A stretch of 64,000 nucleotides of DNA, taken from the NCBI RefSeq assembly GCF_004803915.1, contig NZ_CP039396.1, forward strand, positions 2,480,001-2,544,000. Direction: 5' to 3'. Of the stretch, positions 1,987 through 60,509 are shown in pieces. The notes under the pieces were generated by a model. The model saw nothing but the letters and a program-made list of their open reading frames with translations, was not told where the DNA came from and did not search any database. The translations under genes and the position numbers were made by a program. Each line of letters opens with the position of its first letter. Position 1 is the first letter of the stretch. Source of the DNA: Duncaniella dubosii. GTDB lineage: Bacteria; Bacteroidota; Bacteroidia; Bacteroidales; Muribaculaceae.

Positions 1987-2001
1987 TTTATTATTAATAG
2001 T
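1987..2001 (-). promoter_or_regulatory. ACTATTA-type candidate late promoter
   Basis: Minus-strand ACTATTAATAATAAA matches the recurrent ACTATTAnnnATAAA element found ahead of many virion genes here. It overlaps the stop codon of the DGR reverse transcriptase and precedes the 1954 start by about 33 nt. Confidence 0.45.
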
Positions 2002-3313
2002 CTCGTTGACTTTCAAGTATGGGAATAGGGGGAATATTAATTGAGGTGTATTCAACTAACATTCTGATATATTTATCTTTATCATCTCTTTCCTCAAATT
2101 CTGCAATAGGCTGAGGAAGTGATAATCTATCTTGATAATTATGATTGAGACGGTATCTGATGCGATTCCGAGGATGATATTTCTTTTTCAGTTTGACCAC
2201 TTCCATGTGACCTTTGATATAAACCCACTTGAAAATACGAGGTTCAATTTCCATAAGTCCATTATATCTGATGGCATAACTATCATAATGCCTTAATAAT
2301 CCTAAGTAACTATTGACTGAGGATAAAGCCTTGATGATCTGAGATTTGGTACGACATTGGTTCAGTCTGTGAACACTATGCCGGAAGCTGGTGACTGTAC
2401 GATTTAATGGATAAACTCTTCCCGGTTTAACTACGGCGCCGGTAAAGTCCAATCCTTTGGTATAATGTTGCATATAGAATTTCTTTGGAGATAGTTTTAA
2501 TCCAAGAGATTCTAATTTGACCCTAATTTTTGGAATTGCGTTTAGAATTTGCTCTTTTGTATCGGCCACCAAATAAATGTCATCCACATATCTGCCGTGA
2601 TATTTGATACCAAACTCCTTTTCAATCGCCCAATCCAAAGAGTTCAAAAGGTAGTTGGCAAACATCTGAGATGGAAGATTCCCGATAGGCATACCCAATC
2701 CATTGCCATTTGTAAAGAGTGATTTGCTGGCTGGAAGATTATTCCACATTGCTTCAGATGACTGTCTGATACAATTCTCTTCCGGACAATGACTTAATAC
2801 CACATGACATAGATAAATCAAATCGTCTTTATCCTCGCCGTGATACTTTTCTTCCACCAGTCTGACAACCATATCCTCAACCAGTTTCTTAGGGATAGAC
2901 ATAAAGAAACTATTGATGTCAACGGTGGCTACATAGCAATCCTGAGTGTAGTTATTTGAACACTCGATTATATCTTTCTTCAACTGATCGACACCGGCCA
3001 GAGTGCCTTTGCCATTTCTACAGTTGAAAGTGCGATCATTAAATTCTTGTTCGATTATTGGCTCTAATCGGAGCCTGATGTAATGATGAATGATGCGGTC
3101 TGCAAAATCGGCCGCAAAAACCTCACGATATTTGGGGCGACTAACGACAAAGCAAATGGAACGTTTCGGATAATAGGTTCTATTGTTGATGGCTTGCATC
3201 ATATTATAGAGATTGCCTTCTACATCAAGAGTAAACCTGATGCAGTTGTTTGTCCGCGACTTGTGTACGCGACAATCTAAATAGGCTTCTACTAATCCTT
3301 CATACGTTACCAT
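1994..3313 (-). CDS. DGR reverse transcriptase
   Basis: 439 residues. The protein carries reverse-transcriptase palm motifs: an aspartate-containing VATVDINSFFMSIP segment (about residues 128-141), IGNLPSQMFANYLL (about 211-224) and the catalytic YVDDIYLVA (about 242-250). The IGxxxSQ sequence at motif 4 is characteristic of DGR reverse transcriptases, which copy the template repeat with errors at adenines. No maturase or endonuclease domain is seen. Directly upstream are the template repeat and avd, then the target gene with its variable repeat, which is the usual order of a complete cassette. The protein is expected to work with Avd and the template RNA to rewrite the two variable regions found in this window. 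Confidence 0.95.
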   Translation of the reverse strand: MVTYEGLVEAYLDCRVHKSRTNNCIRFTLDVEGNLYNMMQAINNRTYYPKRSICFVVSRPKYREVFAADFADRIIHHYIRLRLEPIIEQEFNDRTFNCRNGKGTLAGVDQLKKDIIECSNNYTQDCYVATVDINSFFMSIPKKLVEDMVVRLVEEKYHGEDKDDLIYLCHVVLSHCPEENCIRQSSEAMWNNLPASKSLFTNGNGLGMPIGNLPSQMFANYLLNSLDWAIEKEFGIKYHGRYVDDIYLVADTKEQILNAIPKIRVKLESLGLKLSPKKFYMQHYTKGLDFTGAVVKPGRVYPLNRTVTSFRHSVHRLNQCRTKSQIIKALSSVNSYLGLLRHYDSYAIRYNGLMEIEPRIFKWVYIKGHMEVVKLKKKYHPRNRIRYRLNHNYQDRLSLPQPIAEFEERDDKDKYIRMLVEYTSINIPPIPILESQRDY

Positions 3314-3379: not shown

Positions 3380-3492
3380 TGAAATGCTGCCACAGCGCGG
3401 ACGTAGTTGCTGTTCGTGGCCTTAGTGTTCCAGTTGTTGAGGTTGCCGTCGTTCAGGTTCAAGTTCCAAGCGTTCGTCGCCGAGTTCTCAGT
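3380..3492 (-). repeat. DGR template repeat (TR)
   Basis: 113 nt matching the 3' ends of two genes (4263-4375 and 53836-53945). Read on the minus strand, the variable codons are almost all AAC, the usual DGR design that cannot produce a stop by adenine change. Compared with VR1, 14 of 15 substitutions are at TR adenines; compared with VR2, 10 of 10. The last bases of the repeat (GTGGCAGCATTTCA) are invariant and correspond to the initiation-of-mutagenic-homing zone. Downstream sequence differs between TR and VRs, as expected. No protein is needed from this segment. Confidence 0.96.
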
Positions 3493-3607
3493 GTATCGGG
3501 TACGTTTTCTTATTCTTAACTACCTATGGCAGTAGTACCCCCATTTCTCACAGAAGCGCATACTCTATGGTCATCCTTAAATTTCCATACTCTGTGCGTT
3601 GCACCGA

Positions 3608-4253: not shown

Positions 4254-4258
4254 AAGGG

Positions 4259-5083
4259 TTAATGAAATGCTGCCACAGCGCGGCCGTAGCCGCTGCCCGT
4301 GGCCTTAGTGCCCCAGTAGTAGAGGCTGCCGTCGTTCAGGTACAAGCGCCAAGCGTTCGTCGCCGAGCCCTCAGTCGAGGACCAATGCCAGGACTCAACA
4401 AGCGGGCTGGCGCCCGAAATGACTGAGAGGCACAGATTGATGGCGTATTTGTGCTTCCAGATGGTGATCAGCTCTGCGATAGAGGGGAGCCACCATTGTC
4501 CAGCGCCGATACCGACTGTTTCGCCATCGTCATTGATGTAGGAGCGATCGTAGGCGTTGCACCATGCAGGCGCAAACTGGGTCCAGGTCTCTTCCTCTTC
4601 ACCGAAGAGTTCGACACCTTTGGCCATGATAGCGGCGGTGCGGGTCTTGCCTGAGTAGTCAACATACGCTTTGTTGTAGTCGCCGCCGGTATCGGCATTG
4701 ACTGCGATAGCGTTTTTCGACCATTTGAGCTGAGTGCCGGTGGGAGAAACGATGATTGGTGCCTGACCGTCAATGAGAACGAGAACACCATCAGCAACTT
4801 CGCCAGCGGCTTCGAGGGCAGCCCACTTCCAGTAGGGAACAGCGAGAGGCCAGTTATCGCTCTTACGGTGGTAGGTCACGAAACAGCCGTCAGTGGCTGC
4901 CTGAAGCTGCGGGTTAGCTTCCAGCTGATTGTTGGAAAGAGTGTCGACCTGATTCTGAAGAGCGACGTCCTTGTCATGCAGAGACTTGATCTGATCTTTC
5001 AAGAATTTCTGGACCTGAGCACCAGTTGCCTGGGCACCCTTTGCACCCCAGTCATCTTCCATTGTTAAAACTTTTTCTGCCAT
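4259..5083 (-). CDS. DGR target protein 1, C-type-lectin-like tail receptor candidate
   Basis: 274 residues. Residues about 20-60 form a helical, coiled-coil-like N-terminal segment. The C-terminal half resembles DUF1566/C-type-lectin-fold DGR targets, with WWLPSIAEL near residue 200, then HWSSTE leading into the variable region. The last 38 residues are encoded by VR1 (4263-4375), where AAC codons of the template have become G, R, Y and S codons. The gene follows the tail-fibre genes in the late operon, so the product is probably displayed on the fibre tip or baseplate and binds changeable host surface ligands. Family is well supported; location on the virion is inferred. Confidence 0.92.
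   Translation of the reverse strand: MAEKVLTMEDDWGAKGAQATGAQVQKFLKDQIKSLHDKDVALQNQVDTLSNNQLEANPQLQAATDGCFVTYHRKSDNWPLAVPYWKWAALEAAGEVADGVLVLIDGQAPIIVSPTGTQLKWSKNAIAVNADTGGDYNKAYVDYSGKTRTAAIMAKGVELFGEEEETWTQFAPAWCNAYDRSYINDDGETVGIGAGQWWLPSIAELITIWKHKYAINLCLSVISGASPLVESWHWSSTEGSATNAWRLYLNDGSLYYWGTKATGSGYGRAVAAFH
4263..4375 (-). repeat. DGR variable repeat 1 (VR1)
   Basis: Aligns without gaps to the template repeat at 3380-3492. Substitutions: 14 at template adenines and one T-to-G (GTC to GGC, Val to Gly) close to the invariant end. The exception could be an old point mutation in either copy. Identity stops sharply at both ends. Confidence 0.95.
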
Positions 5084-53238: not shown

Positions 53239-53949
53239 ATGATCTCAGACGAAATCGTAAAAGCCATTTATGCTTCTCTTCCAGCAGACGAGAAGCTGAA
53301 ACTCGCTCTCTACAGTGACTTCGGTGAAGAAGCGCCGACAGTGTATGACTTCATCAAATCTCCCGCTAAAGAAAGCGAGGAAGTCAATGTAACCGTCCAG
53401 CCTGTTCACATTCCCGGCGAAGTTCTCACTACTGATGGGGTGTATTATCTCTATGAGGATGGCACCTCGGAAATGTTCGACTACAAAAAGCGTAACGCTC
53501 CGACAAAGGCTGTCAAGCGTATCGGCGTAGTAATGGGAAGTCATGCTCTCGCCGTCAATCTGGAGGATTACCCGGAACAGCCTCTCACCAGTCAGAAAGA
53601 TACCACCGGCTACACCGGCTACATCTCAGAATATGTCGATGCAGTTGCTGACTGGAACGGCAAAGCCAACACTGAACACATCAAGTCTATCGGCACCGGC
53701 ATAGAGCTGAAGGATGGCGAGTGGATTCCGTCAGTCGCCGAACTCTATCTCATTTATCTCAATAAGCGGTCAATCGATGCCGCCATCGAACTTAGCGGCG
53801 GTAGCCGCATAAAAGATGGTTGGTACTGGACCAGCACTGAGCGCTCGGCGACGAACGCTTGGTACTTGTCCCTGAACGACGGCCTCTACAACTGGAACCC
53901 TAAGGCCACGGGCAGCTACTACGTCCGCGCTGTGGCAGCATTTCATTAA
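53239..53949 (+). CDS. DGR target protein 2 (remote)
   Basis: 236 residues. The N-terminal ~75 residues carry an acidic helical part; the middle has LTTDGVYYLYEDGTSEMFDY; the C-terminal region reads DGEWIPSVAELYLIYL and DGWYWTSTE, as in target 1 (DUF1566/C-type-lectin-fold type). The last 37 residues come from VR2 and differ from the template at adenine positions. It lies on the opposite strand about 49 kb away from the retroelement and not next to tail genes, so it may be a separately expressed receptor-type protein: a second fibre tip, or a protein shown on the host cell. Confidence 0.9.
   Translation: MISDEIVKAIYASLPADEKLKLALYSDFGEEAPTVYDFIKSPAKESEEVNVTVQPVHIPGEVLTTDGVYYLYEDGTSEMFDYKKRNAPTKAVKRIGVVMGSHALAVNLEDYPEQPLTSQKDTTGYTGYISEYVDAVADWNGKANTEHIKSIGTGIELKDGEWIPSVAELYLIYLNKRSIDAAIELSGGSRIKDGWYWTSTERSATNAWYLSLNDGLYNWNPKATGSYYVRAVAAFH
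53836..53945 (+). repeat. DGR variable repeat 2 (VR2)
   Basis: 110 nt matching the template repeat, with one in-frame AAC codon absent (after GACGGC) and 10 substitutions, all at template adenines (including ACT to CCT). The invariant end GTGGCAGCATTTCA is intact. Confidence 0.95.
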
Positions 53950-54996: not shown

Positions 54997-56292
54997 ATGA
55001 AACCAAGAAATAAACTTCAGAGAAAGATTTTGAAACTATCTCAGGGTCTTTCTCCGCTTACCAAATACCAGTATAAGGAGGCTGTAAGAAAAGTTGGTCT
55101 GCATATTGCGAAATACAGCTCCAAACGAGGATATGAGTGTTTGGATTGCGGTCATACTTGGACTGGAGCTGAAGCAAAGCGAGTAGTTTGTCCTCATTGT
55201 GGTGCAAAACTTAATGTTGATGCTACACGAAAGAGAAATTTCTGTGAGAAAGACTATTTTGCAGTAGTTACAAAATGTCAGGGTTTCCAAGTTGTTCGGA
55301 TGTTCTTTATGCAGACCAATTTAAGGAAAGGCAGCAAGCCTACTTATTGGATTTGCGAGGCATTTCAACGCTGGCTTACTCCAGATGGAAAGCTCACAAT
55401 AGTTGGTCGGTCCCGACATTGGATTTCTTATTATTGTGATTGCTGGAATTGGGATAGTGATATGGAAATAAGGAGTGAAGGTCCAGGACACATGGTAACA
55501 CCTTGGAAAGTTGTCGGCCAATCATCTGTAATTCCTGAAATAAAACGAAATGGATATGCCGGAGATTTTCATCATTGTTCGCCATACACCCTTTTCAAAA
55601 GACTCCTTACCGATAACAAGACTGAAACGGCGTGGAAACTTGGTCAATATAATATGGTCGCTTATTCAATGGCTAAATCTTATGAGTTTGAGAAATATTG
55701 GCCATCCGCAAAAGTTGCTTTCCGTCACAAATACCATATTTCAAATGCCTCAATTTGGTATGATTTGCTGGATGCTTTAGATTATTGTGGGAAGGATTTG
55801 AGAAATCCTAAATTCATCTGTCCCGACAATCTTAAAGAGGCTCATGATTTTTGGATTGCTAAAAAGCGAGCTAAGATAGATGAAGAGAATAGACGAAGAG
55901 AGCGTGAAAGACGGATGACACCAGAACAACGCTATCAAGCCAATAGCAAGCATGATGAGGCTCAATATAAGCAAGACAAATCCAAATTCTTAAATTTGGA
56001 ATTTGTCGATCAGGAAATTGTTGTTAAGCCTCTTCAATCTGTAAGGGAATTTTTGGATGAAGGTGAGTATATGCACCATTGCGTATTCACTAACAAATAT
56101 TATTCCAAGAATAATGTGCTTATACTTCACGCTTTGGTTGAGGGCGTATCAATCGCAACTATAGAGTTTTCATTAGAAAATTTCTCAATCGTACAATGTC
56201 GAGGAAAGTATAATAAAACCCCAATGAGTTATGAACGAATAACATCACTGGTCAATTCCAATATACCGAAAATAATTTCAAAAACCGCATAA
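54997..56292 (+). CDS. PcfJ-like protein
   Basis: 431 residues. N-terminal zinc ribbon (YECLDCGHTWTG ... VVCPHCGAKL, about residues 46-70), a middle region with aromatic repeats, a charged helix (EENRRRERERRMTPEQRYQA), and a C-terminal PcfJ domain with SVREFLDEGEYMHHCVFTNK followed by YSKNNVLILHALVEGVS. PcfJ is a plasmid/phage accessory protein of unknown activity, near universal partner of PcfK. It precedes the RT2 locus by two small genes. Confidence 0.87.
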   Translation: MKPRNKLQRKILKLSQGLSPLTKYQYKEAVRKVGLHIAKYSSKRGYECLDCGHTWTGAEAKRVVCPHCGAKLNVDATRKRNFCEKDYFAVVTKCQGFQVVRMFFMQTNLRKGSKPTYWICEAFQRWLTPDGKLTIVGRSRHWISYYCDCWNWDSDMEIRSEGPGHMVTPWKVVGQSSVIPEIKRNGYAGDFHHCSPYTLFKRLLTDNKTETAWKLGQYNMVAYSMAKSYEFEKYWPSAKVAFRHKYHISNASIWYDLLDALDYCGKDLRNPKFICPDNLKEAHDFWIAKKRAKIDEENRRRERERRMTPEQRYQANSKHDEAQYKQDKSKFLNLEFVDQEIVVKPLQSVREFLDEGEYMHHCVFTNKYYSKNNVLILHALVEGVSIATIEFSLENFSIVQCRGKYNKTPMSYERITSLVNSNIPKIISKTA

Positions 56293-56617: not shown

Positions 56618-56869
56618 ATGGAAGTATATAGCGTACAAGTTGAGTATGCAGGTGAACGACCGGGCGAAGACTGGCATGGTCACACACTGTGGTCAACACT
56701 TGAAGGTGCAAGGCGTGGCCTGAAAAGCGAGCGTGATAGTATTCTTCATAAAAATACTTGGCTCAACAATGAAAACTGTATAGAAATTGATAAGGAGGAT
56801 CATTTCTTGGCAGGCGATGACCAGGAGTCCTACGACATTACAATCAGCAAAGAAAAAGTCCATGAATGA
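56618..56869 (+). CDS. Small hypothetical protein upstream of RT2
   Basis: 83 residues; SVQVEYAGERPGEDWHGHTL and acidic C-terminus. Its end overlaps the RT2 start by 8 nt, so it may be co-translated with RT2 and could be a partner. Confidence 0.6.
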   Translation: MEVYSVQVEYAGERPGEDWHGHTLWSTLEGARRGLKSERDSILHKNTWLNNENCIEIDKEDHFLAGDDQESYDITISKEKVHE

Positions 56870-58133
56870 CAAAATATTAGAGATGTTTTTCGACATCAAA
56901 CGATGGACGTATGCCATTGATAAAGGTGTTGGAAAACATATCAACAAAGCTCATCTCTACCAGCTCACCAAACCTGAGACCAGAGCAGCGATGTATGCCG
57001 CAATCAGGGATGGGAAATATGAAATAGCTCCACCTCATACGGCACAGATACCAAAGGACAACGGAGATTTTCGCACAGTCTATATCAACGAGCCCGTTGA
57101 CCGTGTATTCCTTAGCATTGCCAACGACCTCTTGTTTGAACTTATGCCTGAGATGATTCATCCAGCTTGCCAGTCCTACCAAAAAGGGATAGGATGTGGT
57201 AAGATCGTGAAAGAAATATCTTGGAAAATATGCGAGACCAAGGGCGATGTCATTGGATGGAAATCTGATTTCAGCAAGTATTTCGATTCCGTTCCCATTC
57301 GGTTTATTGACGAAGCCTTTGATAAGGTGGAAGCCAAATACGGTCATTCAGCTATCATAGATGTGCTCCGTAAGTATTATCACTCCGACTGGTATTTTGA
57401 TGCAGACGGCAATCTCCAGAAATCCTATCAATCACTCAAACAAGGCTGTTCGGTAGCCTCTTGGTTAGCCAATGTGGTTATGTTTAGTCTTGATGAACGA
57501 TTGAGCAAGCTGGATGGCGAATATGTCCGCTATTCTGATGACGCTCTATTTGTCGGTCCTGATTATATGAGAGCAATGGAGATTATGTCTGAAGAAGTTG
57601 CTATGCGAGAAATGACACTCAATCCCAAAAAGATAGAGTATCTGACCCACACTCGATGGTTTAAGTTTCTTGGCTTTTCCATTATGGGCGCTTCCATCTC
57701 ACTCAGCTCAACACGAATTAAGTCCTTTCAGAAAGAGATTGAGGCACGAACAATCCGTGCTAAGAATCTGAGCTTCAATAAAGCCATAAATCAGGTTAAT
57801 AACTATCTTTATTTCGGGAATGGCGAATATAGCTGGGCCACCCAGGTTCTTCCGGTTATCAATGTGCAAAAGGACGTTCAAATACTTTCCGTGTTTGTAG
57901 CGGATTGCTTGCGAGCAGTGATTACCGGCAAAACAAAAGTAGGCGGCCTGGGTTATGTAGCCAACAATCCTGATGGCTGTATTCAACGAGGTATTGGCCG
58001 AAACGTGAAAGCTAACCGTATCAAAACCGATAAGACACTACCCGGCTACTACACTCTGGGATGTATGCAAAATGCACTCCGTACCAGTAAAGAGGTTTAC
58101 AAGACCTTGGTAGCTAATCTTAATCGGAAATAA
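56862..58133 (+). CDS. Second reverse transcriptase (RT2), adjacent to the RNA module array
   Basis: 423 residues from ATG at 56862 (the longer upstream start overlaps the previous gene and has unlikely sequence). Reverse-transcriptase motifs: RTVYINEPVDRVFLSIANDL, aspartate motif DVIGWKSDFSKYFDSVP (about residues 128-144), KQGCSVASWLANVVMFSLDE (about 201-220), catalytic YSDDALFVGPD (about 226-236), then LNPKKIEYL and a thumb-like C-terminal third. It lacks the DGR IGxxxSQ motif, the retron VTG/NAxxH signature and group II maturase or endonuclease domains. The non-coding array of five structured modules starts within about 40 nt downstream on the same strand. I consider it the enzyme of that array. 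Confidence 0.93.
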   Translation: MNDKILEMFFDIKRWTYAIDKGVGKHINKAHLYQLTKPETRAAMYAAIRDGKYEIAPPHTAQIPKDNGDFRTVYINEPVDRVFLSIANDLLFELMPEMIHPACQSYQKGIGCGKIVKEISWKICETKGDVIGWKSDFSKYFDSVPIRFIDEAFDKVEAKYGHSAIIDVLRKYYHSDWYFDADGNLQKSYQSLKQGCSVASWLANVVMFSLDERLSKLDGEYVRYSDDALFVGPDYMRAMEIMSEEVAMREMTLNPKKIEYLTHTRWFKFLGFSIMGASISLSSTRIKSFQKEIEARTIRAKNLSFNKAINQVNNYLYFGNGEYSWATQVLPVINVQKDVQILSVFVADCLRAVITGKTKVGGLGYVANNPDGCIQRGIGRNVKANRIKTDKTLPGYYTLGCMQNALRTSKEVYKTLVANLNRK

Positions 58134-58170
58134 GAAATAGATTGAGTGTGCAATGACTGATAGAACGACA

Positions 58171-58282
58171 ATACTTTTAGTGAAGGATCAACAACCCTAC
58201 TGTGGGCCAGGAGCTATCGCTTTCCGTGGCCAACAGTATGGCAGGATCCTTCTGACATCGAATATCTAAAGTAACACACGAT
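58171..58282 (+). ncRNA. RNA module 1
   Basis: 5' box ATACTTTTAG (58171-58180). Outer stem GAAGGATC (58182-58189) / GATCCTTC (58245-58252). Inner ACTGTGGGCCA (58199-58209) / TGGCCAACAGT (58227-58237) with one G.A mismatch, and an apical GGAGC-TATC-GCTTTCC hairpin. Spacer TGACATCGAATATC, then TAAAGTAACACACGAT from 58267. Confidence 0.75.
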
Positions 58283-58333
58283 ATTGTCTGACTATCAATT
58301 ACCGAATATGCGGTCTTATCTGAAGGGTCAATC

Positions 58334-58451
58334 ATTTAATTATACAGAAGATGCCAAGATGGACCAAGTTTCATCATCTCTTGTCAGAGATGCTTTCACT
58401 GGTCCATCTGGGATATTCTGTAGAATATCAAACCAATAAAGCAACATATCA
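58334..58451 (+). ncRNA. RNA module 2
   Basis: 5' box ATTTAATTA (58334-58342). Outer stem TACAGAA (58343-58349) / TTCTGTA (58416-58422). Middle stem AGATGGACCA (58357-58366) / TGGTCCATCT (58400-58409), 10 bp perfect. Inner CATCTCT (58375-58381) / AGAGATG (58386-58392) closing tetraloop TGTC. Spacer then TAAAGCAACATATCA (58437-58451). Confidence 0.8.
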
Positions 58452-58504
58452 CTGACATGACAGATAGTATAAGCCAAGTATATGGCAGCGACCTGAGAGA
58501 TGAT

Positions 58505-58608
58505 AAATTTAGCTGGGCTTCATTAAGCTGCCGCTGTAGGCCATACCTACCCTCCAGCGGCAGCCATAAAGCCCTTGCATCGAATGATTAAAGATATATA
58601 CCATATCA
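58505..58608 (+). ncRNA. RNA module 3
   Basis: 5' box AAATTTAG (58505-58512). Outer stem GGGCTT (58515-58520) / AAGCCC (58569-58574). Inner GCTGCCGCTG (58527-58536) / CAGCGGCAGC (58555-58564), and apical GTAGG / CCTAC. Spacer TTGCATCGAATGAT, then TAAAG at 58589 with a longer, AU-rich tail ending CATATCA at 58608. Confidence 0.8.
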
Positions 58609-58651
58609 TCTTCAGCAGCTTAGTAATGCGACATTATGGTTCAAGAAAACA

Positions 58652-58778
58652 AAATTTAGTCATCCAGATTGTAATATGACTCAGGTTGCACCGGCGTTTC
58701 ATTCCTTATCAGTCAATTACGCCGGTTTCACCTGAGTCATCCGTCTGGATTTCATCAGCACAATAAAGAAACGCATCA
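58652..58778 (+). ncRNA. RNA module 4
   Basis: 5' box AAATTTAG (58652-58659). Stems ATCCAGA / TCTGGAT (58662-58668 / 58744-58750), ATGACTCAGGT / ACCTGAGTCAT (58676-58686 / 58730-58740), ACCGGCGT / ACGCCGGT (58690-58697 / 58719-58726). The loop and stem edge contain TTATCAGTCAATTAC, an exact 15-nt match to 41660-41674. 3' box TAAAGAAACGCATCA (58764-58778). Confidence 0.82.
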
Positions 58779-58831
58779 CTGTTTTTGAGAGCCAGACCAC
58801 CTTAGCACAAAGGAATTTTATCAAGATTGGC

Positions 58832-58954
58832 AAATTTAATAGAGCTGGATTTAATCCTGGATCTGAATCAACACCACCAGGTTAGCTACCTGGCTCAGTC
58901 GATTCCGATCCAGTCTATCCAGCTCCTTAATCGATCCGATAAAGAAATGTGTCA
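58832..58954 (+). ncRNA. RNA module 5
   Basis: 5' box AAATTTAAT (58832-58840). Stems GAGCTGGAT / ATCCAGCTC (58842-58850 / 58917-58925), CTGGATC / GATCCAG (58857-58863 / 58907-58913), GAATC / GATTC (58865-58869 / 58901-58905), CCAGGT / ACCTGG (58877-58882 / 58888-58893). 3' box TAAAGAAATGTGTCA (58940-58954). Confidence 0.8.
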
Positions 58955-58991
58955 AGCCAATGAGATTATAATTTTTTAACTAAAAAATCAA

Positions 58992-59453
58992 ATGCAAAAC
59001 ATCTATTATGAAGTGATAGAGAAAGTTCAGAATGGAGCCAAATTCCAAGTTGACTTTCAGCAACGGAGTCTAAAAATTGATGGCAAATATATCATCAAGA
59101 ACGGCGAGTATGAGGGTGAATTAGGAATTGAGGTATCTGATACTCCACTTCTAACCATCGCTCAATTATTTCTCCGCTATCAGCATAGTTTGCCTTCGGA
59201 AAGAAGTGACAACAAAAGATATAGATACTTCAATCCACTTCCGGAGCATGAGCTTTCTGATAACGACATGCTTTATGGCGAACCACGAGAAACCGCTCAA
59301 ATCAAATTGGAGCTTTATGTTCTGATAATGATTTTGAATGGCTCTCTTAAATGGGATGTATTTGCCAAGGACAAATGGTTCTGGCAATGCCCATCAGCAA
59401 AAGAACTCATTATTCTCAAAGAATGGGTTGAACCTAAAAAAGAAAATAAATAA
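58992..59453 (+). CDS. Hypothetical protein after the RNA array
   Basis: 153 residues; beta-rich start (FQVDFQQRSLKIDGKYIIKN) and helical end with LELYVLIMILNGSLKWDVFA. No family recognised. Start lies 37 nt after the last RNA box. Confidence 0.6.
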   Translation: MQNIYYEVIEKVQNGAKFQVDFQQRSLKIDGKYIIKNGEYEGELGIEVSDTPLLTIAQLFLRYQHSLPSERSDNKRYRYFNPLPEHELSDNDMLYGEPRETAQIKLELYVLIMILNGSLKWDVFAKDKWFWQCPSAKELIILKEWVEPKKENK

Positions 59454-59474: not shown

Positions 59475-60509
59475 ATGGCAAAAATTAACGTACAGTGCCC
59501 TAAGTGTGGCGCAAACATCAAAATCAATGCACCCGAAGTCGTAGCAGTAGTTGCTCCCATCTCAGCAATCCCAGTAGTCGCTGCTTTCCCTGCTAAGAAA
59601 CTTAATGCCGCAGAAGCCAAAATCGAAGCTCTCCGCAGTGCCGGTGTCAACGTCGAAAACCTCTTCTCTATTCGTGGCACAAACGGTGCTTATGAGGTCG
59701 GCCGCCTCAATGATGGTCAGTTCTCAGTAGTTTCTGATGATGATCCCATCTTCGCAGCCATCAAAGCCAGTCGTACTATTCCTGACCGCCGTTTGTTCCG
59801 TCGCTGGATTATGGCCCAGGTCTTTCACATGCTGTCCGAAAAGGACTGTAAGACCGGCAATCCCATCGGTTTCACTGCTGCTCTTCGCCGCAAGGGTTAC
59901 AAGTATCAGTGGAAAATGGTAGTTGAAGAACTCCGCGTTCAGGCTAAGCTCTTCAACGATGACCCTGAGAACTATGCAGAGCGCAATCGCTGGTTCAACA
60001 GAAGCGTGGTTATCCAGATGGCTAACGACTACATCAAGCTCGTCAAGAACATCGTAGGCACTATCCGTATTCGCCACTGCAAAGGCGTTCCTTATGTTCG
60101 TCTTGACGGCACTGACATCTTTGTTGATGACCTTCAGACAAGGGTGTATGCTTCGCTTGAAAAGCTGGTGAAATCAATAAAGAATACCCGCAATCCCGGC
60201 GCACTTCATAAAGCCACCGTAAACTTCTATCAGGCTGTAAAAAACACCTGTCTGTTCTTTGATATGGAACAGTCCAAGGCTTTCAAAGACGCTTATAAGG
60301 GTGCCGGCGCTTTCTTCACATTGAAGAACCTCATTCTCTTCCATGATTGTGTGTTCCCCAAAATGGATCAGGAGGCTTCAATCGCTTATCTCAACTATCT
60401 GGTAAATGACAAGGATTTTGAGGGCTACAAGCTCTTCGGAGTTCTGAAAGACTTTCTGATCACCAATCATATCGACATCGAGGCCAAGCAGAGAGAATGG
60501 CAAAAATAA
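59475..60509 (+). CDS. Zinc-ribbon protein of a Bacteroidetes mobile-element family
   Basis: 344 residues. N-terminal zinc knuckle VQCPKCGANIKINAPE, Ala/Val-rich linker, then a large helical domain with FRRWIMAQVFHMLSEKDCKT, KGYKYQWKMVVEELRVQAKL and HCKGVPYVRLDGTDIFVDDL. This architecture recurs in plasmids and phages of Bacteroidetes with unknown function. Base composition is more G+C-rich and codon usage smoother than in the surrounding small genes, suggesting high expression. Confidence 0.75.
   Translation: MAKINVQCPKCGANIKINAPEVVAVVAPISAIPVVAAFPAKKLNAAEAKIEALRSAGVNVENLFSIRGTNGAYEVGRLNDGQFSVVSDDDPIFAAIKASRTIPDRRLFRRWIMAQVFHMLSEKDCKTGNPIGFTAALRRKGYKYQWKMVVEELRVQAKLFNDDPENYAERNRWFNRSVVIQMANDYIKLVKNIVGTIRIRHCKGVPYVRLDGTDIFVDDLQTRVYASLEKLVKSIKNTRNPGALHKATVNFYQAVKNTCLFFDMEQSKAFKDAYKGAGAFFTLKNLILFHDCVFPKMDQEASIAYLNYLVNDKDFEGYKLFGVLKDFLITNHIDIEAKQREWQK

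Follow-up and report, generated by a model that had tools for sequence, protein, structure and literature searches.

We report that an array of five structured RNA modules accompanies a reverse transcriptase (RT) of the UG27 type in a 64,000-nucleotide stretch of the Duncaniella dubosii genome (contig NZ_CP039396.1, positions 2,480,001 to 2,544,000; hereafter the window). The window comes from a host genome of 3.69 Mb and its setting is a prophage region, marked by a tape-measure tail gene and by near-identical viral contigs. The modules share a scaffold, composed of a mini-hairpin P0, a closing stem P1, a 3' box and a pseudoknot, which covaries in homologues and encloses a long hairpin, P2, that differs from module to module. 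The array tracks the RT. With modest confidence, we favour a system made of the UG27 RT, its cis-encoded array of structured RNAs and two accessory proteins, in which the P2 hairpins would be copied into hairpin complementary DNAs (cDNAs).

Organization of the cassette

The gene order on the + strand is the UG27 RT, the five RNA modules (58141-58967), RTas346 and RTas337. These three proteins are the UG27 set of PADLOC, in which both partner profiles are DRT-associated.

56862..58133, + strand: UG27-type reverse transcriptase (RT2), 423 amino acids (aa), catalytic YSDD; PADLOC RT_UG27 E 4.9e-230, covering 1-420 of 420; RVT_1 E 7.7e-19
58992..59453, + strand: RTas346 partner protein, 153 aa, fold not recognised; PADLOC RTas346 E 9.7e-68
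59475..60509, + strand: RTas337 partner protein, 344 aa, N-terminal CPxCG (zinc-ribbon-like) motif followed by a helical body; PADLOC RTas337 E 1.9e-136

The 858 bases that run from the RT to RTas346 contain the five modules and no open reading frame of at least 90 aa. Rfam 15 gave no match at the gathering score in the window, a permissive Rfam scan of 58100-59000 gave sub-threshold matches only, and a tRNA search of the window found none.

The Y-x-DD motif of the RT is present in 79/79 non-identical homologues, with YSDD in 75 of the 79. In the ranking of PADLOC profiles, those next after UG27 include UG26, Drt9, UG17, UG4 and Drt2. A retron-type RT was rejected: the PADLOC retron profile scores 33.4 bits against 761.6 for UG27 (among the best 25 of 57 families), and NCBIfam retron_St85 scores 43.5 bits, below its cut-off of 235. 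The predicted structure of RTas346 has a pLDDT (predicted local distance difference test) score of 91 and no match in the PDB at E <= 0.001. That of RTas337 has a pLDDT of 86 and no match in the PDB or BFVD at the same threshold.

Structure of the RNA modules

From 5' to 3', a module consists of P0, the 5' strand of P1, a 5' box (for example AATTTA or ATTCAA), P2, about 10-15 nucleotides (nt) that include ATCAA or a variant of it, the 3' box, and the 3' strand of P1. P1 is made of two helices around an internal loop of the AAG/(U)GA type, and the long variable hairpin P2 is located between its strands. P0 has a 6-nt loop, A-RYRYR, where R is a purine and Y a pyrimidine, while the 3' box reads TAAAGNNA-YRYRY-C. 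The RYRYR segment of the P0 loop pairs with the YRYRY segment of the 3' box of its own module, forming a pseudoknot across P1. In the window, the two segments are complementary over 5 base pairs (bp) in 5/5 modules, with five different loop words and, in module 5, a wobble. In the following list, the 3' box is given by its first position and its pairing segment.

58141..58298, + strand: module 1; P0 58141-58154, loop GTGTG; P1 58157-58174/58281-58298; P2 58182-58252; 3' box 58267, CACAC
58301..58468, + strand: module 2; P0 58301-58314, loop ATATG; P1 58315-58331/58452-58468; P2 58339-58426; 3' box 58437, CATAT
58473..58621, + strand: module 3; P0 58473-58486, loop GTATA; P1 58487-58506/58603-58621; P2 58512-58578; 3' box 58589, TATAC
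58623..58795, + strand: module 4; P0 58623-58632 (weak 2-bp stem), loop ATGCG; P1 58636-58652/58779-58795; P2 58659-58753; 3' box 58764, CGCAT
58800..58967, + strand: module 5; P0 58800-58813, loop GCACA; P1 58819-58832/58955-58967; P2 58842-58925; 3' box 58940, TGTGT

The P1 duplexes of the window have energies of -9.1 to -16.0 kcal/mol. Compared with dinucleotide shuffles, the P2 hairpins of modules 1 to 5 have z-scores of -4.7, -7.3, -5.7, -7.7 and -7.9, and for each of them 0/200 shuffles fold as well. A covariance model of the modules, R1, which comprises 5 base pairs only, was run over the whole 3.69-Mb genome, with 150 of 514 first-look candidates being scored. It found 4 places at E <= 0.01, all within the array. 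Modules 2 (59.3 bits, E 1.2e-6) and 3 (60 bits, E 8.9e-7) were in its training set, of which the other 28 of 30 rows came from other loci. Modules 4 (40 bits, E 0.0024) and 5 (47.4 bits, E 1.3e-4) were not.

An earlier note on this DNA, made from the sequence, had described five units with shared boxes and unrelated stems at these positions and had held that such an array would hardly arise by chance. The five units are present where it placed them, with the 3' boxes starting as listed. Chance is excluded, as a descriptor made of the 3' box and the adjacent hairpin matches nothing else on the two strands of the window and nothing on the opposite strands of homologous loci (see below). The constant spacing that it reported between stem and box holds in part: it is 13-14 nt when the stem is ended by eye as in the note, but 14, 10, 10, 10 and 14 nt by minimum free energy, the shorter values arising because weak outer pairs get added to the stem. 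The P0 mini-hairpin, the closing stem P1 and the pseudoknot between loop and box had gone unseen. The observation is therefore confirmed, and it is stronger than first described.

Conservation of the system in homologous loci

Public collections were scanned with the RT, which gave 25 viral loci, and with an RT alignment, which gave 28 genome loci and 99 viral loci, the best 80 of the latter being kept. These 28 and 80 loci and the window form a set of 109 rows. The rows are non-identical stretches, many of them close relatives; L011, L012, L023, L024, L025 and a later set of loci stand outside the homologue counts. RTas346 is present in 107/109 rows and RTas337 in 106/109, and the RT co-occurs with both in 106/109, with another order in L091. 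Both partners were missed in L054, a 25% relative, and in L111, which is cut by a contig end; RTas337 was missed also in L098. A single open reading frame joins the RT to the C-terminal part of RTas346 in 11 loci, which are not all independent (L046, L049, L093, L098, L099, L100, L101, L104, L105, L106 and L107). The modules of these loci, where found, lie after the fused gene, with one extra match upstream of the RT in L104 and L107. These patterns suggest that RTas346 acts together with the RT, to which it is fused in some phages, and that RTas337 is a further partner, apparently obligate.

The descriptor found 451 modules in 96/102 non-identical rows, with 1-11 modules per locus, whereas the opposite strands of 97 loci, 1.17 Mb in all, gave no match. 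As 120 modules from these same loci had served to train its box matrix, its specificity is shown by the control strands and not by the count of 96/102. Six rows gave no descriptor module. One is L054, where the RT is 25% identical (not profiled), and another is L098, whose contig is truncated; in the remaining four, L053, L091, L124 and L133, divergent hairpin modules are visible by eye. The descriptor also undercounts: in phage BS-TP1 it finds 3 modules, against about 8 by eye. Arrays of varying size, which the earlier note had predicted, do occur beside homologues of RT2. Its other expectation, that the stems would change in a compensatory manner, is borne out by the P0-loop/box pseudoknot and by P1, as follows.

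When the P0 loops were chosen regardless of sequence, 75 of 132 distinct cases had a loop fully complementary to the box, against a mean of 26.8 over 1000 shuffles, the highest of which reached 38. By eye, many of the 57 pairs that do not match seem to come from loops that were picked wrongly. There are 28 fully complementary loop-box word pairs, and 26 of them (73/75 cases) alternate purine and pyrimidine (RYRYR/YRYRY), with positions that switch between A-U and G-C. The loops of other modules at the same locus also fit the box in 80/314 cases, because few loop words are in use. For P1, a set of 154 modules picked for loop-box complementarity was reduced to 120 by de-duplication. The mean pairing energy of a P1 strand is -15.0 kcal/mol with its own partner and -7.2 kcal/mol with a swapped one (p 7e-61); -7 kcal/mol is reached by 118/120 own pairs and by 1110/2376 swapped pairs. 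The 3' box is strongly conserved across homologous modules.

An alignment of 30 rows, A6, was made from 28 of 30 short-P2 modules and two window modules, all picked for loop-box pairing; neither L075, which has a loop word without alternation, nor L131 was included, a choice made without a test. In A6, the named structure has 78.5% of its cells paired and a covariation score of 0.607, compared with 0.320 for shuffles (0/500 as high) and at most 0.232 when the structure is slid. The pseudoknot is paired in 100% of the rows because these were selected for pairing, so that 75/132 is the unselected measure. The P1 columns are misaligned in part of the rows, with P1 pairs at 61% and 72%. A conserved, structured and cis-encoded non-coding RNA (ncRNA) is a feature of Class 2 UG/DRT systems, and the modules, with their covarying structure beside the RT, share it as putative ncRNAs.

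Association of the array with the reverse transcriptase

The earlier note had assigned the array to RT2. This assignment holds, since modules are present in RT homologues and are found with the RT in searches that are independent of it. A box pattern run over IMG/VR gave 45 stretches, 10 of which have at least 2 modules; the RT is in the stretch in 9 of them and on the same contig in 1 (L187). Nine of these 10 contigs had already been found with the RT, and L219 is new. As a chance control, the box pattern with wrong spacing gave 38 stretches, none with a descriptor module. Single descriptor matches occur on two viral contig stretches without a UG27 RT (L200 and L222). R1, run over 149 genomes of the family of the window, found modules in 4, which are the four with a UG27 RT of at least 74% identity. 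Two more family genomes, with an RT relative of about 50% identity (50.5 and 48.7%; 51%), were missed by R1 and have compact modules by eye. Such misses mean little, because R1 has 5 bp, 20 candidates were scored per genome and the filters were strict. The position of the array varies, from the gap between the RT and RTas346 to that between RTas346 and RTas337 or downstream of RTas337.

UG27 has a rare and patchy distribution: counting the genome of the window itself, it is present in 3/393 sampled genomes of the order and 1/395 of the phylum. The system is also found in BS-TP1, an isolated phage of Bacteroides salyersiae (L135, PQ571274.1), whose UG27 RT (L135 12001-13263) is annotated as 'tail protein'. 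In L053, a Bacilli genome bin in which the modules are divergent by eye, the three proteins score as the UG27 set. The loci L312 and L313, both divergent (about 50% RT identity), have the RT, two compact modules, RTas346 and RTas337, the last found in L313 by tblastn only. Their scaffold is kept, and the array is larger in phages than in these two loci. Within the 12 kb examined, the neighbours of the L312 cassette are a SusC/SusD pair on one side and, on the other, an endonuclease/exonuclease/phosphatase gene and then a polyvalent-protein gene. The four flanking genes that were profiled include no phage structural gene, and the polyvalent protein may mark another mobile element. L313 is a 3.9-kb contig, uninformative on context.

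The P2 hairpins fall into 228 families, of which 136 are singletons. Families are collinear among relatives, as in the order 2-5-0-7-1 with a further module after RTas337. One family is found in the RT-RTas346 gap in one phage and after RTas337 in another.

Pairing in the P2 hairpins

On copying into cDNA, a G-U pair of the RNA turns into an A-C mismatch, and an A-C mismatch of the RNA turns into a G-T wobble. Among interior pairs, G-U accounts for 40/2270 (1.8%) in P2 and for 60/1005 (6.0%) in P1 (p 8e-10). P0, P1 and the pseudoknot have a G-U share of 4.7-9%, wobble having been allowed when the modules were picked. P2 avoids G-U, therefore, as expected if it also acts as DNA. G-U pairs stand to A-C mismatches as 22:2 in P1 and as 25:18 in P2; taking one module per family, P2 gives 46:30 with RNA parameters and 34:24 with DNA parameters. 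Across orthologous P2s of 42 families, one-sided changes of a Watson-Crick pair led to G-U in 17 cases and to A-C in 20, and there were 33 double compensatory changes. The mismatches of P2 in RNA-parameter folds comprise 93 CU and CC against 48 GA and GG. This is indirect evidence that P2 may be selected as DNA. The hairpin cDNAs proposed in the earlier note gain indirect support from the G-U avoidance and the mismatch pattern, while reverse transcription of the modules is not proved.

Neighbouring genes and a separate retroelement

Upstream of the RT, at 54997-56292, the window has a gene for a PcfJ-like protein with a zinc-ribbon-like stretch, which some relatives have too. Some 3 kb before the start of the UG27 RT lies an Lcl_C/DUF1566-like gene (53239-53949). 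Such a gene occurs within 4.5 kb upstream of the RT in 26/108 rows, and phage BS-TP1 has an annotated DUF1566 gene just upstream of its RT.

The window also carries a separate diversity-generating retroelement, composed of RT1 (1994-3313, - strand), a template repeat (3380-3493) and variable repeats at 4254-4375 and 53835-53945. Its substitutions fall on template adenines in 10/10 and 14/15 cases. The second variable repeat lies within the Lcl_C/DUF1566-like gene at 53239-53949, 50 kb from the template. The UG27 RT was rejected as the RT of this element, as the template repeat adjoins RT1, 53 kb away.

Discussion

In the system that we favour, the RT would bind each module through the scaffold of P0, P1 and pseudoknot, start in or beside the 3' box, which sits just 3' of P2, and copy P2 into a hairpin cDNA. 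As each P2 would be copied by one RT, a single enzyme would yield a set of different DNA hairpins; the ncRNA of an RT-ncRNA system would in this manner have been multiplied into a repertoire, each P2 giving a distinct cDNA. The earlier note had the RT recognise the shared boxes alone, an idea that the scaffold now displaces. We also suggest, more tentatively, that one phage RT serves a heritable repertoire of up to about 11 RNA templates held in a common pseudoknotted cradle, from which it would make distinct hairpin DNAs in a multiplexed, retron-like manner, with products kept slot by slot among relatives, and that this repertoire may have expanded in phages from a two-module ancestor.

The least certain step is the use of the products, which might serve defence or phage-phage competition like those of other RT-ncRNA immune systems, the repertoire having been expanded in phages. 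Such a role would be the most likely one, in view of the kinship of the RT (the PADLOC 'DRT' label and the next-scoring profiles), the L312 cassette and the patchy spread. The earlier note had thought of phage replication or diversification. This is not upheld. The diversity-generating retroelement of the window uses a different RT, and the L312 cassette and the 'DRT' label would point rather to defence or phage competition.

Several points weigh against the copying of P2, beginning with the fact that the system is known here from sequence alone. No priming residue was identified among the RT homologues, in which the conserved C-terminal tyrosine is phenylalanine in 4/79. P2 is only 19-27 nt long (approximate, by eye) in L312 and L313, so that the system can do without a long one. 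The folds behind the G-U statistics are predicted ones, and P2 is richer in G-C pairs than P1 (53% vs 39%). With DNA parameters the strand bias of the mismatches is weaker (CU and CC 75 vs GA and GG 56, p 0.12). Among orthologous P2s, 45 one-sided changes broke the pair in other ways, to other mismatches, and 18 changes from G-U to a Watson-Crick pair could be counted while their A-C counterpart could not, because pairs are defined by the fold of one member. Moreover, the Class 2 UG systems DRT3a, DRT9 and DRT10 use short confined templates (PMC13174585, PMC12483538, PMC12632851).

That last point, together with the strong conservation of the 3' box and the short P2 hairpins on an intact scaffold in L312 and L313, is what speaks for the main alternative. 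In it, the modules would be RT-bound ncRNAs like those of DRT3a, DRT9 and DRT10, the template for simple repetitive DNA would be a short segment within the single-stranded region of the 3' box, and P2 would serve only as an RNA arm, structural or regulatory, whose sequence could drift. We consider this rather unlikely. The sequence of P2 is not free, since slots are collinear and some families recur across phages, though 136/228 are singletons; G-U pairs, which an RNA arm could tolerate, are avoided; and the keeping of up to 11 modules per phage would go unexplained. It is improbable that the modules are elements of the operon mRNA, such as processing or attenuation signals, working apart from the RT. 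They do lie inside an operon, between co-directional genes, but their position shifts while the link to the RT persists, and the RT-independent searches, with one narrow pattern and one model, give no array without the RT. Nor would a covarying pseudoknot be usual in hairpins that merely direct processing.

Sites of folded single-stranded DNA that serve recombination, similar to attC, or replication would account for the variable middles and conserved ends of the hairpins and for the DNA-like tolerance of mismatches. The share of G-U pairs in P0, P1 and the pseudoknot, the contiguity of the modules, with no genes of note between them by eye, and the lack of a recombinase among the profiled neighbours make such sites very improbable. 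Hardly more credible are decoys for restriction enzymes or DNA-binding proteins, for which the long double-stranded P2 stems would be suited, or a repetitive toxic gene of the kind made by DRT2 (PMC12039810). Palindromes of 6 nt are depleted in P2 arms (79 vs 111 +- 9), the lengths of P2 are evenly spread modulo 3 (39/38/34 of 111), and frames that would run on endlessly in a concatemer are as frequent as in shuffles (31/111 vs 148/555). The decoy and toxic-gene readings are disfavoured by these palindrome and reading-frame tests.

If the copying of P2 is correct, diversified natural templates would show how RT-ncRNA systems evolve specificity; the system would open the question of what each hairpin does and supply natural multiplex DNA-writing scaffolds. 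It is directly testable, because a computed scaffold, an isolated phage, BS-TP1, and a two-module cassette exist. A screen of the PubMed Central literature by titles, abstract starts and term counts found no description of a UG27 ncRNA or of an RT with an RNA array, although an earlier mention is possible.

Among known systems, the UG27 locus of PADLOC (RT_UG27, RTas346 and RTas337) has three proteins identical in kind. That entry consists of proteins only, to which the window adds the RNA array. In retrons, an RT lies beside a structured ncRNA with a variable long hairpin, and one msr-msd per RT is usual. The window system resembles them in having an RT with structured RNAs, a variable long hairpin and, in the reading that we favour, a hairpin cDNA. 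It differs in that its RT scores as UG27, in its several modules and in the absence of an Rfam match. In the literature examined, RT-ncRNA systems have one RNA per enzyme. DRT2 (UG2) has one 280-nt ncRNA with a 120-nt template that gives rise to a repetitive gene (PMC12039810). It shares with the window system a UG RT with a neighbouring pseudoknotted ncRNA, which has a 5' handle, a least conserved middle (the template in DRT2) and a 3' pseudoknot, whereas the window system has several modules of about 150-180 nt, no reading frames of the neo type and two extra proteins. The resemblance in layout counts in favour of P2 being a template. DRT9 (UG28), DRT10 (UG17) and DRT3a (UG3) also have a cis-encoded structured ncRNA, and Drt9 and UG17 are among the profiles next after UG27. 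In contrast to the window system, these three have, in the descriptions examined, a short confined template, a tandem-repeat or homopolymer product and one ncRNA, and the partner of DRT10 is a SLATT protein (PMC12632851).

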